The notes below the pieces were generated by a model. That model worked only from the letters and a program-made list of their open reading frames with translations, was not told where the DNA came from and did not search any database. From assembly GCA_040218145.1 (NCBI GenBank), contig JAVJQK010000082.1:62001-126000 (forward strand): 64,000 nt of DNA, written 5' to 3'. The position numbers were made by a program, and so were the translations under genes. The DNA is from Sandaracinaceae bacterium (GTDB lineage Bacteria; Myxococcota_A; Polyangia; Polyangiales; Sandaracinaceae). Positions 48,569 through 63,900 of the stretch are shown one piece after another (the first letter of the stretch is position 1; each line of letters begins with the position of its first letter).

Positions 48569-49737
<1,169 letters not shown>

Positions 49738-51238: not shown

Positions 51239-52249
51239 ATGATTCCGGCGATGAGCGGTGGCGGTTTCAGCTCCTGGTGGCTCCGCGCGGGTGAGGGCTC
51301 GGCGCGCAAGATCACGCCCGCTGGCCTGCTGCTCGGCCGCTCCGCCCACTGCGACGTCGTCCTTCCGAGCGAGCGGGCGAGCCGCCGCCAGGCCCTCGTC
51401 TACCTCGCGAGCGAGGGCCCGCGCCTCGAGGTGCTCGGCCAGGGCGAGACCCGGGTGGGCGAGCGGGTCGTCGAGCGGAGCGCCGACCTCGCAGACGGCG
51501 ACGTGATCGGCTTCGAGTCCCTGTCGCTGACCGTCTCGCGCGAAGAGAGCGCGGCCCCGCGCGTCCGCGCCCGCCAGCCCGTCTGGGTCCTGAAGGATCC
51601 CGACGGCGGCCTCTTCGGCATGGCCAGCTCGCCCTTCCTCGTCGGCGGCAGCGTCGAGGACGACCTCCGCGTGGCTGGCTGGCCCGACGCGGCGCTCTGC
51701 TTCCGGCTCGCCGAGGGCGGCGCGCTCGAGGTCGAGGCGCAGGCGGATGCCACCGTCGACGACACCCCGCTCCCGGCCGGCCAGCGCGCCCGCCCGCGCC
51801 GCGGCGCCCGCATCACCCTCGACGGCCGCACCCTCGAGGTCGTCACGGGCGGCGCCTTCGCGAGCGGCAGCACGGCCGCCAGCGGCGACGCGCCCGGCCT
51901 CGAGAAGGTCTCGCTCGAGTTCCTCCCCCGCGGCGGCCGGCTCACCCTCGTCCAGGGCGGCGAGGCGCAGACCGTCTACCTCTCCGACCGCCGCTGCGAC
52001 CTCGTGGCCGTCCTGCTCTCGCCGCCCGAGCCGCAGAAGGCGGGCGACCCCATCGAAGACGACGTCGTGATCGCGCGCGTGTGGGGCAAGCAGCACGCCG
52101 ACCGCACCAACCTCAACGTGCTCCTCCACCGCGTGCGCAAAGATCTCTCCCGCGTCGGCCTCGACGGCCACGCCCTGCTCGAGCGCACCGAGGGCGGCGG
52201 CGCCACCAGGTTTGCCGTGCATGATCGTACCGAGGTGGAGCTGGAATGA
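51239..52249 (+). CDS. FHA domain / winged-helix regulator
   Basis: A 336-residue protein from the ATG at 51239 (another in-frame ATG is at 51251). Residues about 25-100 are an FHA domain (GLLLGRSAHCDVVLPSERASRRQALVY), which binds phosphothreonine. Residues about 115-200 may be a second, degenerate FHA. Residues about 235-330 form an OmpR-type winged helix (LVAVLLSPP, IARVWGKQHADRTNLNVLLHRVRKDL). The following kinase gene is the likely source of the phospho-signal. The last codons and stop lie in the first copy of a 17-bp tandem duplication. Confidence 0.82.
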   Translation: MIPAMSGGGFSSWWLRAGEGSARKITPAGLLLGRSAHCDVVLPSERASRRQALVYLASEGPRLEVLGQGETRVGERVVERSADLADGDVIGFESLSLTVSREESAAPRVRARQPVWVLKDPDGGLFGMASSPFLVGGSVEDDLRVAGWPDAALCFRLAEGGALEVEAQADATVDDTPLPAGQRARPRRGARITLDGRTLEVVTGGAFASGSTAASGDAPGLEKVSLEFLPRGGRLTLVQGGEAQTVYLSDRRCDLVAVLLSPPEPQKAGDPIEDDVVIARVWGKQHADRTNLNVLLHRVRKDLSRVGLDGHALLERTEGGGATRFAVHDRTEVELE

Positions 52250-52267
52250 GGGTGGAGCTGGAATGAG
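52234..52267 (+). repeat. 17-bp perfect tandem duplication at a gene junction
   Basis: GGTGGAGCTGGAATGAG occurs twice back to back. The first copy encodes the last residues and stop of the FHA regulator; the second supplies the ribosome site and ATG of the kinase. The unit itself contains an ATGA, so a single copy would give the overlapping stop/start used at many other junctions in this window. Confidence 0.95.
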
Positions 52268-53177
52268 CGAGGACCCCTCCTCGGTCCCCCTCGCCGCCGC
52301 CTTCGCCGAGCGCTACGAGCGCCTCGGCCTCCTGGGGGAGGGCGCCATGGGCGAGGTGCGCCTCTGCCGCGACCGCGTGATCGGCCGCGAGGTCGCCATG
52401 AAGGTCATCAAGAGCGTGCGCGTCGACAGCCCACACCGCTGGCGCTTCATCCGCGAGGCCCGCGTGCAGGGCCAGCTCGAGCACCCCGCCATCGTCCCCG
52501 TCTACGACCTCGGCGTCAGCCCCGAGGGCCACCCCTTCTTCACCATGAAGCGCCTGCACGGCGAGAGCTTCGGCCAGGTCCTCGAGAAACTCCGCGCCGG
52601 AGACCCCGAGGCCCCGACCCGCTGGACGCGCAAACGCATGTTGCGCATGTTCGCCACTGTCTGCCTCGCCGTCGACTTCGCCCACGCCCGCGGCGTCGTG
52701 CACCGCGACCTCAAGCCCGACAACCTCATGCTCGGTGAGTACGGCGAGATCTACGTGCTCGACTGGGGCATCGCCAAGCTCCTCGCCGAGGCCGTCCAGA
52801 AGAGCGAGGCGCGCCTCCTCGACGCCTCGCGCGCCACGCGCACCGACCAGGGCTCCGTGCTCGGCACCCCCGGCTACATGTCCCCCGAGCAGCTCCGCGG
52901 CGAGGTCGCCGCCGTCTCCTCCGCGGCGGATGTCTACTCCCTCGGCGCGCTCCTCTTCGAGCTGTTGACGCTGCGCCCCCTGCACGACCAGGAGCGCATG
53001 CAGGACAAGCTCATCTCCGTGCTCCAGACCGACGGCGCGCGCCCGAGCGAGCGCGGCGCCCGCGTGAACCCCGCCCTCGACGCCGCCTGCCGCGAGGCGC
53101 TCCGGCTCGACGCCGCCCGCCGCCCCACCGCGCGCGCCCTGCACGACATCGTCGAGGGCTGCCTCGACGCGGGCTGA
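52263..53177 (+). CDS. Soluble serine/threonine protein kinase
   Basis: A 304-residue kinase that is almost only catalytic domain: LGEGAMGEVRLCRD, catalytic Lys in AMKVIKSV, HRDLKPDNLML, DWGIAK in place of DFG, and GTPGYMSPEQL. The DWG variant is found in a subset of bacterial Hanks kinases and does not preclude activity. It has no transmembrane helix. It starts just after the FHA regulator and shares the duplicated junction with it. Its stop shares TGATCA with the convergent kinase. Confidence 0.88.
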   Translation: MSEDPSSVPLAAAFAERYERLGLLGEGAMGEVRLCRDRVIGREVAMKVIKSVRVDSPHRWRFIREARVQGQLEHPAIVPVYDLGVSPEGHPFFTMKRLHGESFGQVLEKLRAGDPEAPTRWTRKRMLRMFATVCLAVDFAHARGVVHRDLKPDNLMLGEYGEIYVLDWGIAKLLAEAVQKSEARLLDASRATRTDQGSVLGTPGYMSPEQLRGEVAAVSSAADVYSLGALLFELLTLRPLHDQERMQDKLISVLQTDGARPSERGARVNPALDAACREALRLDAARRPTARALHDIVEGCLDAG

Positions 53178-54623
53178 TCAATCTTCGGTCAGCGGGTGCA
53201 GCAGCTCGAACGGGTTGGGCAGGGAAGGGCGCTCTCCCTCGGGAGGCGGCGGCGGAGGCGGCGGGCTCTCCTCGTCGCCGTCGGGCGCGGGGCGTGGGGT
53301 CGCCCTCGGCGCGCGCGCGGGCCGCTCGCGCGTCTCTGCCGGACGCTCGATCTCGCCAGCCGCGCTGCCCTCCGGAGGTGGAGCGACCGCGGGCTCCATG
53401 GCCGGCATCATCGGCGCGACCTCGTCCGGCTCGACCGCTGGCGTCGGCGGGGGCGGCGTCTCCTCCGCGCGCGGGCTCGGCTCCGCGCGAACGCCGCGAC
53501 CCATCCAGAGCGCGGCGCCGATCGCCGTGACGCCCATCGCGCCGAGCAGCCCGAAGGCCACCAGCCACGGCCAGATCGCGCGGCGTCGAGGCGCGGCCGG
53601 CCGCGTGGGGGGAAGGCCAGCGGGGATCGGCCCCGAGACCGGCATCACCGTCGTCGCCGCCTCGAGCGTCGCGGGATCCGTCGCCGCCATGACCGTCGTG
53701 GCCGCGCGGGACGACGCCGGGATCTCCACCCGCGGCATCTCGCGGATCGTCACCGCCGCGCTCTGCGCGTCCAGCTCCGCCAGCACCGCGCGCAGCCCCG
53801 CCATCAGCGCCGCCGCGTCCGCGGGCCGCTCGCTCGGCTCCTTGCGGAGGCACGACTCCACCAGCGCCATCAGCGCGGGCGGCAAGGTCGGCACCCGCTC
53901 CTCGAGCGGCACGTGCGGCGCGGTCAGCACCGCGAGCATGAGCGCGTGCGACGTCGCGCGGAACGGCGGCTCTCCGGCCAGCGCCTCGTAGAGCATCGTG
54001 CCGAGCGCCCACACGTCGGCGGGCGGCCCGGCCGACTTCGAGTCCATGAACTGCTCCGGGCTCATGTAGCGCGGCGTGCCGATCGCGGTCCCCGTCTCCG
54101 TCACCGACGGACTGTCGTCGCGCCGCACCAGCCCGAAGTCGAGCACGCGCAGCTCCCGGCCTCGCTTCGTCGCGTGCACGAACACGTTGTCGGGCTTCAG
54201 ATCGCGGTGCACGAAGCCCGCGCCATGCGCCGCGTCGAGCGGCTCGAGCAGCTTCACGAAGAGCTCCAGCAGATCCCGCAGCGACAGCTGCCCGCGCTCG
54301 AGCAGCTCCCGGAGCGTCTCCCCCTCGAGCCACTCCATCGCGAGGAACGGCCGCCCCTCCTCGTCGATCGCCGCGTCGAGCACCTCCACGATGCCCGGGT
54401 GCTCGATCGACGCGGGCGCCGCCACCTCCCGCGCGAAGCGGGCCCGGGTCGGCTCGTCGTGGGCCATGTGCGCGTGGAGCACCTTCAGCGCCACCACGCG
54501 CTGCGTCACGATATGTTGCGCACGGTAGACCGTCCCGTAAGCGCCCGCGCCCACCTCTTCGAGGACGCGGTACCGCTCACCGACCACATCTCCCGGCTCG
54601 AAATCACCACGCCGCCTGCGCAC
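53178..54623 (-). CDS. Transmembrane serine/threonine protein kinase
   Basis: A 481-residue kinase: VGAGAYGTVYRAQ, Lys in ALKVLHAH, HRDLKPDNVFV, DFGLVRRD and GTPRYMSPEQF. A transmembrane helix lies at about residues 352-372 (WLVAFGLLGAMGVTAIGAAL), followed by a Pro/Glu-rich tail ending in PFELLHPLTED. There is no recognisable extracytoplasmic sensor. It resembles the kinase at 34006-35529 in layout. It starts with a run of Arg (MRRRRGDF). Confidence 0.9.
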   Translation of the reverse strand: MRRRRGDFEPGDVVGERYRVLEEVGAGAYGTVYRAQHIVTQRVVALKVLHAHMAHDEPTRARFAREVAAPASIEHPGIVEVLDAAIDEEGRPFLAMEWLEGETLRELLERGQLSLRDLLELFVKLLEPLDAAHGAGFVHRDLKPDNVFVHATKRGRELRVLDFGLVRRDDSPSVTETGTAIGTPRYMSPEQFMDSKSAGPPADVWALGTMLYEALAGEPPFRATSHALMLAVLTAPHVPLEERVPTLPPALMALVESCLRKEPSERPADAAALMAGLRAVLAELDAQSAAVTIREMPRVEIPASSRAATTVMAATDPATLEAATTVMPVSGPIPAGLPPTRPAAPRRRAIWPWLVAFGLLGAMGVTAIGAALWMGRGVRAEPSPRAEETPPPPTPAVEPDEVAPMMPAMEPAVAPPPEGSAAGEIERPAETRERPARAPRATPRPAPDGDEESPPPPPPPPEGERPSLPNPFELLHPLTED

Positions 54624-60901: not shown

Positions 60902-63900
60902 ATGCCGCGCTGCGCTTTCCGCCGGGCTGCGCTTTCCGCCGCGCTGCCGCTCGTCGCGCGGAGCGGCGCTCGGTCGACGTCGCGCGGCGGCTGGGGCTTC
61001 GGCGTGTCAGTCCCGCTCTGGAGACTTCTCGGAGTCGCCGCCCTGGTTGGTAGAGACGCCCTCTCGACGCGCGAGGGCGCGGACGGCAGCGTCTACGGCC
61101 ACACCACGCCGTACTACGACGAGTTCGGCCGGCTCGTGCTCTCGGAGACCAGCGCCACCCTGCCGGCGAGCCACCCCACGGGCTACGAGTTCGGCGGCGA
61201 CAGCAACGGCGCCCAGGCCTTCACCCAGGGCAGCCAGGTCGTCGAGTCCTCGAGCTCCTACGACGCCTGGGGCAACGCCGAGGCGAGCTGCGCGGGGGCC
61301 AACCTCGCCAGCGGCACGTCCGGCTGCCTCCGCTACGGCGAGGTCGACTACGACACCGACTACGACATGTTCCCCACCACGGAGCGCATCGCGCGCGACG
61401 GCACGGGGGGCGCGTTCACCTACCTCGAGACCAGCGGCATCTGGGACCGCGGCCTGGGCGTCCTGACCTCGATGGCGGACCCCACGGGCGAGTCGACGAG
61501 CGTCGGCTACGACGGCTTCGGCCGGCTCACCCAGGTCACCCCGCCGCCCGCCGAGAGCTGCAGCGCCATGCCCGTGCAGCGCTTCGTCTACGACCTCGCG
61601 CCGGGCGGCGCGCCGATCAGCGTGGTGACGACCTACGCGGAGCAAGACTGCGCGGCCATCGGCGCCGACCAGATCGAGGCCCGCACCTACGTCGACGGCC
61701 TCGGCCGCACGCGGGCCTCGCTCTCGCCCGCCTCCGCGGCAGACCCCGGCGCGTGGATCCAGTCGGGCATCACCATCCTGAACCAGCGCGGCACCGTGAA
61801 GCGGGCGTATCAGCCCGAGTGGGTGATGGAGAGCGACCCCTCCATCGCGCGGGCCCTGCGCATCCCGTCCACCCCCTACGAGTGGGCCGGCTACGACAGC
61901 TTCGACCGCCCTCGCTGCGCCACGAGCGCGTGCGGCCAGATGAGCTGCACCACGTACCACGCGTTGACCGTCGACGAGTGCGACCACCTCGACATGTCGA
62001 GCGACCCGCTGCACGCGGGCACCTGCACCACCACGCGCACCGACGGCCACGGCCGCACCGTCGACCAGGTGCTCCGCAACCGGCAGGTCCCCCACGGCCC
62101 CATCGAGTACTACCGCCTCTGGAGCGACTACCGCGCCGACGGCGCAGTCACCCTGCTGACCCGCGCGGAGACCACCACCGACGGCCTGCGCAGCGCCGCC
62201 CCCGTCGTGGCCGGCCACCAGGTGCAGCGCACCTTCACCTACGACAGCGTCGGCCGACGCATCGGCACCACCGACCCCGACAGCGACTCGCTCGACGCCG
62301 CGTGCACCAGCCGCAACTGCACCTGGCGCTACCTCTTCAGCGAGGTCGGCGACCTAATCGCGGTGCGCGACCCGCGCGGCTGCGGCCAGAACTTCTACTA
62401 CGACCGCCTCGGCCGCCTCATCGGCGAGGACTACGTCGAGTGCGGCGAGTCGCAGGGCTCGGCCGAGATCAGCGCCGAGACCGTGCCCGCCACCGCGGTG
62501 GCCATGGAGGAGCTCGGCGCCGCGCGCACCGTAGACGTCCGCTACCACTACGAGACCGCGCCCGGCTGGGCCGGCTACACGCAGGTCACCGCGAACCCGA
62601 GCCGCTACCGGGGTCGCCTCGTGGCGGTGGCCGACCGTGGGCAGCGCAGCGCAATGGCCTACGACCGGCGCGGCAACGCCACCTGGTCCGTGCGCGAGAT
62701 GGCGGTGATCCCCGACGCCGGCTCCACCACCGTCATCAACGCCGACCCCGGCGACGGCATGCCGCCCACCGTGAGCGACACGCCCGCCGCGCCGACCACG
62801 CGCGAGTACGACACTGCGCACCCCTACGTCCGCACGGCGTCGTTCGACCACGCGGGGCGGCCCACCAGCATGACGCTCCCGTCCGACCCGGACTGGACGG
62901 GGACGGGGCTGGCGCCGGAGATCGGCGGCACCATCGCGTACGACGAGCGCGGCCTGCCCAGCAAGGTGGAGCTCACGGTCGACAACGCACCGCGCACCAT
63001 CGTCGAGTCGATTCGCTACTCGGAGCACGGCCTCGTCGAGCGCGTCCAGTACGGGGACGACGACGGCCGCATGCCGACCGTCAGCACCACCACGTACGAC
63101 GCGTGCCTTCGCCCGCGCGAGTTCGAGACCAACCGCGCGCCGACCGCGGGCACCGGCACCGACCTCGCGCTGGTGACCACGCCGATGCACCAGCGGCTGA
63201 CGTGGGACGAGGCGAACAACCTCGTGCGCATCGAGGACCTGCGCGACGCGAGCGAGTGGCCCGACGGGTACCGCCCGCAGACCGTCGACGTCTTCCACGA
63301 CGCGCTCTACCGCGTGGTCAACGCGCACTACACCTACGCGGGCGGGATCGCGGGCGGCGACCAGTCGAGCAACTGGCGCAGCGACATGGCGACGCACCGG
63401 GCGGACGACCCGATGCGCACCACGCCCGCGCCGATGGCCGCGGCGCTGCCGCCCGAGCGCGTGCGGAGCCTGACGTGGCAATACGACTGGCTCGGCAACA
63501 TGCAGGAGTGGACCGACGACGCGCACGCGTTCTACGAGCGGTCCCTCGGCGACATCGAGAACGGCGCCGACCGCGCCGCGCACGAGCGCCCCGCCGCGCT
63601 GCACCTCGCGACCGACATCCGGCAGTCGAGCCAGCCGCCCGTCAGCATCGACGTCGGCGAGGACCGCGGCGGCTGGGTCGAGCTGACCTACGGGCAGAGC
63701 GGCAACGTCGTCGAGATGACGGTGCACGGCCAGTGCCGCGACCCCAGCGCGAGCTCGGCCTGCTGGGACGACCTCGACCTCGAGGGCAGCGCGCGGGCGA
63801 GCCACCTGCGGGCGAGCTGCTTCTGCGCGACCGAGCAGCACTACGCCTACCGCTGGGACGAGCTGAACCGGCTCGCGGAGGCGCGCCGCTACGACCGCAT

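Follow-up and report, generated by a model that had tools for sequence, protein, structure and literature searches.

A 17-bp tandem duplication of a stop/start overlap between a regulator gene and a kinase gene in a Sandaracinaceae bacterium

In a stretch of 64,000 nucleotides from a Sandaracinaceae bacterium, a marine myxobacterium (GenBank assembly GCA_040218145.1, contig JAVJQK010000082.1, positions 62,001 to 126,000 of the forward strand; hereafter the window), the stop codon of an FHA-domain regulator gene and the start codon of the following Ser/Thr protein kinase gene lie in two adjacent copies of one 17-bp segment. A previous reading, made from the sequence only, took this as a duplication that had split a formerly overlapping junction, had given the kinase its own ribosome site and had altered the coupling of the two genes, either as a recent event or as a phase-variable site. 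The locus raises the question of what the junction was before the duplication and of what the second copy changes in the translation of the kinase. Genomes and loci are designated below by our own labels (G and L numbers, with C for contigs), G000 being the assembly that contains the window.

The duplicated junction and its flanking genes

The unit GGTGGAGCTGGAATGAG is present twice at window positions 52234-52267, both copies being perfect, head to tail and with zero spacer between them (Table 1). Its description as a spacerless tandem duplication was thus correct, and so were the presence of ATGA in every unit and the separation of the regulator TGA from the kinase ATG (52263-52265) by 13 bp. 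The array measures exactly 2.0 units, so that no microhomology remains at its ends. When up to three mismatches were allowed, the unit had two matches in the window and no further copies were found in its 64 kb, while shuffled sequences gave a mean of 0.10 matches and reached two or more in 0 of 100 shuffles. In addition, 10 fifth-order Markov versions of the window were free of perfect two-copy tandems with a period of at least 17. The 34-mer formed by both copies occurs a single time in the 11.06-Mb assembly G000, with the same tolerance of three mismatches. Another period-17 array, of 2.6 copies with 92% matches, is located in the same window at 60904-60947.

Table 1. Features at the regulator/kinase junction (window positions).
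Feature	Position	Strand	Description and basis
Regulator gene	51251..52249	+	N-terminal FHA, C-terminal winged-helix-like domain; ends ...EVELE, TGA 52247-52249
17-bp unit, copy 1	52234..52250	+	SD-like stretch, regulator stop, ATGA (ATG at 52246)
Mini-ORF MRVELE (putative)	52246..52266	+	ATG AGG GTG GAG CTG GAA TGA; read from sequence; scripted relay scan
Intergenic gap, 13 bp	52250..52262	+	read from sequence
17-bp unit, copy 2	52251..52267	+	SD-like stretch, kinase ATG within ATGA
Ser/Thr protein kinase gene, 304 aa	52263..53177	+	Pfam Pkinase; ATG 52263; N-terminus aligned with orthologue

The same 34 bp, with two identical copies, were found in the MAG Sandaracinaceae bacterium MED-G138 (L039), which is reportedly the subject of a paper (PMC6931264). 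Given that it was assembled separately, an assembly artefact, which had been named as a way in which the duplication could prove false, is ruled out. Both genomes were aligned with MAFFT over 7,670 bp and showed 98.4% identity, with 110 mismatches and 3 indels. At this divergence, zero differences in 34 bp are expected with P about 0.61 without any constraint, and therefore the identity of the array says nothing on constraint. The presence of two copies in both strains does imply that the duplication is older than their split.

Counted from its start at 51251, the regulator has 332 aa. This start was preferred over 51239 because in MED-G138 a 1-bp insertion at 51245 throws the upstream ATG out of frame. 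The protein is an FHA-domain protein according to Pfam (E 3e-8, residues 27-88, 34.4 bits with respect to a cut-off of 20.7), and residues G29, R30, S44, and R45 of the FHA part were invariant in all 18 aligned regulator sequences, the window's included. Its C-terminus matched Trans_reg_C with an E of 0.034 and 14.7 bits, under the cut-off of 26.2, and so it is not assigned to the OmpR-type winged helices by this profile. In the AlphaFold model (mean pLDDT 79.7, pTM 0.59) helices and strands are seen at the C-terminal end, with a topology compatible with a winged helix, and there is an extra beta-rich part in the middle. A Foldseek search with this model matched many FHA structures, EmbR among them, the matches being to the FHA part. 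The kinase was recognized by Pfam Pkinase (E 5.4e-40, 137.9 bits, cut-off 31.7). A second kinase gene follows immediately downstream, convergent and on the minus strand, and the stop codons of the two kinase genes abut at 53175-53180 with 0 bases between them.

Orthologous junctions and the ancestral state

A match to the regulator with an E of 1e-30 or lower was present in 4 of 10 genomes of the family and in 12 of 183 of the order, the own species being counted in both. We compared the 18 regulator loci outside the species, each taken as the match plus about 1.5 kb per side, with the window kinase. A neighbor more than 50% identical to it was found at three of them (L002, L026, and L003), all from the same family and with L026 and L002 in one genome, and four other loci carried kinases of 29-39% identity. 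The nearest orthologous pair is L002, with 56% identity for the regulator and 60% for the kinase. Its junction is single, the GTG of the kinase overlapping the regulator stop as a 4-nt GTGA, and the kinase N-terminus aligns with that of the window kinase (VSAQPP vs. MSEDPS). The Shine-Dalgarno (SD) duplex at this junction is strong, at −10.8 kcal/mol with an assumed anti-SD. The expectation that a single copy would leave both genes overlapping is thus borne out by the closest pair, but the junctions of L026 and L003 are spaced, by at least 44 and at least 126 nt, respectively.

From the single overlap in L002, the closest by identity and one of the three related pairs, we infer that the ancestral junction likely had one copy and was overlapping. 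It was also correctly noted that stop/start overlaps are found at many other junctions here. The 4-nt overlap is the commonest junction class, both in the window (8 of 36 same-strand pairs) and in 845 kb of this genome (72 of 409), as determined with our own simple gene caller, which set the gene starts outside the window throughout this work.

Reading frames, ribosome sites and coupling

A consequence of the duplication that had been overlooked is the mini-ORF of Table 1. Since the unit length of 17 is 2 mod 3, the first ATG (ATG1) reads copy 2 in the frame that the regulator uses for copy 1, which results in a six-codon ORF ending at the second ATGA. This ORF, whose translation is putative, overlaps 4 nt with the regulator stop and 4 nt with the kinase start. 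Had the unit been 0 mod 3 in length, ATG1 and the kinase ATG (ATG2) would share one frame. Both flanking proteins are unaltered, with the first TGA still ending the regulator and the second ATG still opening the kinase.

In attention to these data, we consider it fairly probable that the locus results from a single, nearly neutral tandem duplication of the stop/start overlap together with its SD, in which a two-step relay is possible. The 17-bp segment carrying the ATGA overlap and the upstream SD would have undergone one duplication, prior to the divergence of the two sampled strains, and the gene spacing would have shifted from −4 to +13. A ribosome that terminates on the regulator could then start again at ATG1, translate MRVELE and, after stopping there, start once more at the kinase ATG, as a natural analogue of a bicistronic leader. 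Such a relay would bypass the 13-bp gap at the price of two reinitiation steps, and the kinase output per regulator would be somewhat lower or little changed, rather than switched on or off. The duplication is probably almost neutral and tolerated at an overlap.

It must be noted that the ribosome site attributed to copy 2 does exist but was not newly gained. The SD duplex was −7.4 kcal/mol before ATG2 and −7.2 kcal/mol before ATG1; given that copy 1 carries an equivalent SD, the single-copy junction already had a ribosome site. As a reference, the median in 676 called genes was −5.6 kcal/mol and random 20-mers gave −3.2 kcal/mol. The anti-SD was assumed for these values, as the canonical pattern of the 16S rRNA 3′ end (GGATCACCTCCTTT) was not found in the whole G000 assembly.

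The claim that the duplication altered the coupling is likewise correct in part. Both genes are spaced by 13 bp, but separated need not mean uncoupled, as the mini-ORF overlaps each of them. In the sections of PMC10666635 on spacing, three pairs of H. volcanii retain 40-60% of reinitiation at a gap of +13/+14 nt; in E. coli pairs such a gap costs 40-80%, one pair remaining below 20% of native. Therefore, the direct jump over the gap would be weakened but need not be lost. In a synthetic operon cited in the discussion of the same paper, +3 nt already lowers coupling about tenfold, by which measure little of the direct jump may be left. The coupling may have been weakened or relayed instead of lost.

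A plain uncoupling, in which the kinase would be initiated de novo at the site of copy 2 and the mini-ORF would be an untranslated accident of frame, is possible, although unlikely. The SD before the kinase ATG is stronger than that of about 71% of the 676 called genes (again with the assumed anti-SD), and slightly less energy is needed to open the start region with two copies (19.0 kcal/mol) than with a single copy (21.6 kcal/mol); for 150 other starts the median was 16.4 kcal/mol. The strong fall of reinitiation with distance, as described in those sections of PMC10666635, also agrees with it. Against this, ATG1 should load ribosomes too, its SD being equal, and the native pairs measured there keep from less than 20% to 60% of coupling at 13-14 nt.

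A site of phase-variable or VNTR-like nature, at which changes of copy number between cells would tune kinase expression, is very unlikely. Perfect tandem copies could slip, and variable copy number at a kinase/regulator junction has a precedent in the mycobacterial MIRU of senX3-regX3. In this regard, a 15-bp repeat differs between the same two strains: MED-G138 carries 15 additional bp (a diverged NTVLE repeat), absent from the window strain, at window position 49714, near the 3′ end of a gene that we take to be trpB, and adjoining a TGATG overlap with the next gene. However, the junction itself has exactly two copies in both same-species genomes (the window strain and MED-G138), and neither a one-copy nor a three-copy allele was present in this sample of two, drawn from a genome collection that may omit records near the window's own; the proposal of a recent or phase-variable site is thus not upheld. 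An upstream start of the kinase at ATG 52221 (or TTG 52212), in frame only through the duplication and making the protein at least 14 aa longer, is very improbable, for although the frame is open from 52212, the SD at 52221 is weak (−3.2 kcal/mol, assumed anti-SD) and the orthologue start aligns with ATG 52263.

Returning to the relay reading, we looked for mini-ORFs of this type in 845 kb of this genome; of the 249 same-strand junctions whose gap is 0-150 nt, 11 have one. Chance levels were a mean of 8.0 with re-paired gene ends (52 of 500 trials reaching 11) and a mean of 13.3 with shuffled gaps (464 of 500), so that a genome-wide selected feature is unsupported. The mini-ORF described here is a by-product of the duplication, and there is no sign of a general selection for relays. 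Nor did gaps of 1 mod 3 form a convincing excess, as a footprint of duplications, among junctions with gaps of 0-30 (86 of 226). Junction self-similarity at the aligned lag reached at least 12 of 20 matches in 8 of 402 junctions vs. 0-4 at the other 12 offsets, a difference inflated by the shared TGA.

Comparable duplications and known systems

Similar events were searched for in 2.445 Mb of three genomes (1.065 Mb of G000, 1.2 Mb of G001, and 0.18 Mb of G004), in which 1176 same-strand junctions were called, 204 of them at −4. For the 862 junctions with gaps from −30 to 100, the test accepted perfect units of 12-15 bp or units of 16-90 bp in which at most 12% of positions mismatched, and in four of them the stop or the start was spanned by a tandem duplication. 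The unit is 17 bp long, with ATGA and a gap of 13, in two of the four: that of the window and one in G001, where GAGCAGTCCGAATGAGA is present twice between other genes and in another genus (L154:13429-13462; G001 C1:1113429-1113462). The products flanking the latter are presumably an ATP-dependent zinc-protease-like protein and a lipoprotein-like product. A congener without the duplication, G006, is 89% identical to G001 over 3.45 kb aligned, and its downstream frame offers as candidate starts a GTG (−4), an ATG (−1), and a second ATG located 8 nt beyond the stop, this last one being the counterpart of the G001 start in the alignment. With these candidates, the ancestor of this junction may or may not have been overlapping.

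The common length of 17 bp makes a weak case for something special. Clean perfect duplications with periods of 10-60 numbered 110 in the 2.445 Mb, and 71 of them had periods of 12-18; the shared length therefore needs no special cause. The main periods were 12 (27), 15 (16), 10 (8), and 18 (6) inside called genes, and 12 (6), 14 (5), and 17 (5) outside genes or across their ends. Elsewhere in G000, a perfect 12-bp duplication, CCGCGGAGTGAT, lies across the stop of another gene and doubles the stop in frame (L081:5229-5255; G000 C109:145229-145255).

The pattern ATGA-N13-ATGA proved a poor detector of duplications, as none of 27 loci read (30 fetched) was a perfect tandem and in 3 of 27 the 13 nt that precede differed at 3-4 positions. 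Among the matches listed in this search of ten genomes, G002 C451:2401-2438 has two identical 17-mers in a row, each starting with ATGA, and G007 C591:13200-13237 has successive 17-mers started by ATGA that are two mismatches apart.

We propose the tandem-duplicated stop/start overlap with a self-made putative relay ORF as a kind of junction. The window junction presents a perfect tandem unit that holds the overlap, a unit length of 2 mod 3 with 4-nt overlaps on both genes, and a relative (L002) with a single overlapping junction. A wider proposal, which we regard as doubtful, is that 4-nt overlaps are recurrently duplicated in tandem with units of 2 mod 3, a route by which genes move apart while preserving their coupling, in which case some pairs at +7, +10 or +13 would be former overlaps and some tiny ORFs would be relays. 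If this were true, both proteins would be kept intact and a relay mini-ORF built in one step. The evolutionary account outlined in PMC10666635 has spaced pairs becoming overlaps, mainly when the upstream stop is lost; the opposite path in one step, leaving both proteins untouched and perhaps the coupling preserved, would be a simple and testable addition to it. In this operon, the change is probably only a modest shift in the ratio of the phospho-reader to the neighboring kinase. The event is real, shared and small, with a neat consequence in the reading frames and no sign of a switch; its interest lies in the mechanism of junction evolution, the biology of the operon being ordinary until measured. 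The same event was not found in print, as judged by titles and abstract openings, which is no proof of absence.

With respect to known systems, the regulator resembles those of the EmbR type in combining FHA and winged-helix-like parts and in being encoded beside a Ser/Thr kinase; the partner kinase of EmbR is PknH. It differs from the EmbR domain order in that the FHA comes first and an extra beta-rich part lies in the middle. The 4-nt termination-reinitiation pairs, which PMC10666635 gives as the commonest junction in prokaryotes, would correspond to the ancestral state proposed above, but the present junction is at +13 through duplication of the overlap.

Bicistronic designs (BCD), in the cassettes described in PMC10367133, share with this junction a short leader ORF with a second ribosome site and a stop overlapping the start of the gene. 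They are engineered constructs that use TAATG and have a longer fore-cistron, whereas this leader is natural, with ATGA and six codons, and would be fed by the upstream gene. Short ORFs that deliver ribosomes to a following gene are known, as summarized in the review PMC12548453. In its relevant paragraphs, MIRUs insert at start codons, and a 4-nt spacing couples the ORF within the MIRU to the gene that follows, an arrangement through which the insertion is probably tolerated with little consequence. Copy number of the MIRU varies at senX3-regX3 of mycobacteria, with units of 77 and 53 bp according to the data extracted from PMC4213456 and PMC2453075; these tandem repeats also lie at a kinase/regulator junction, and by our arithmetic both units are likewise 2 mod 3. 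However, MIRUs are dispersed, apparently mobile and copy-variable, while this 17-bp duplication is unique, local and the same in both genomes. A dispersed repeat family was absent from G000, and a 201-bp query gave only short matches of 77-86% elsewhere; a MIRU-like dispersed element was rejected on the single-copy 34-mer. The closest precedents are the mycobacterial MIRUs and the synthetic bicistronic leaders, and the present case, although a local duplication, would work like both.
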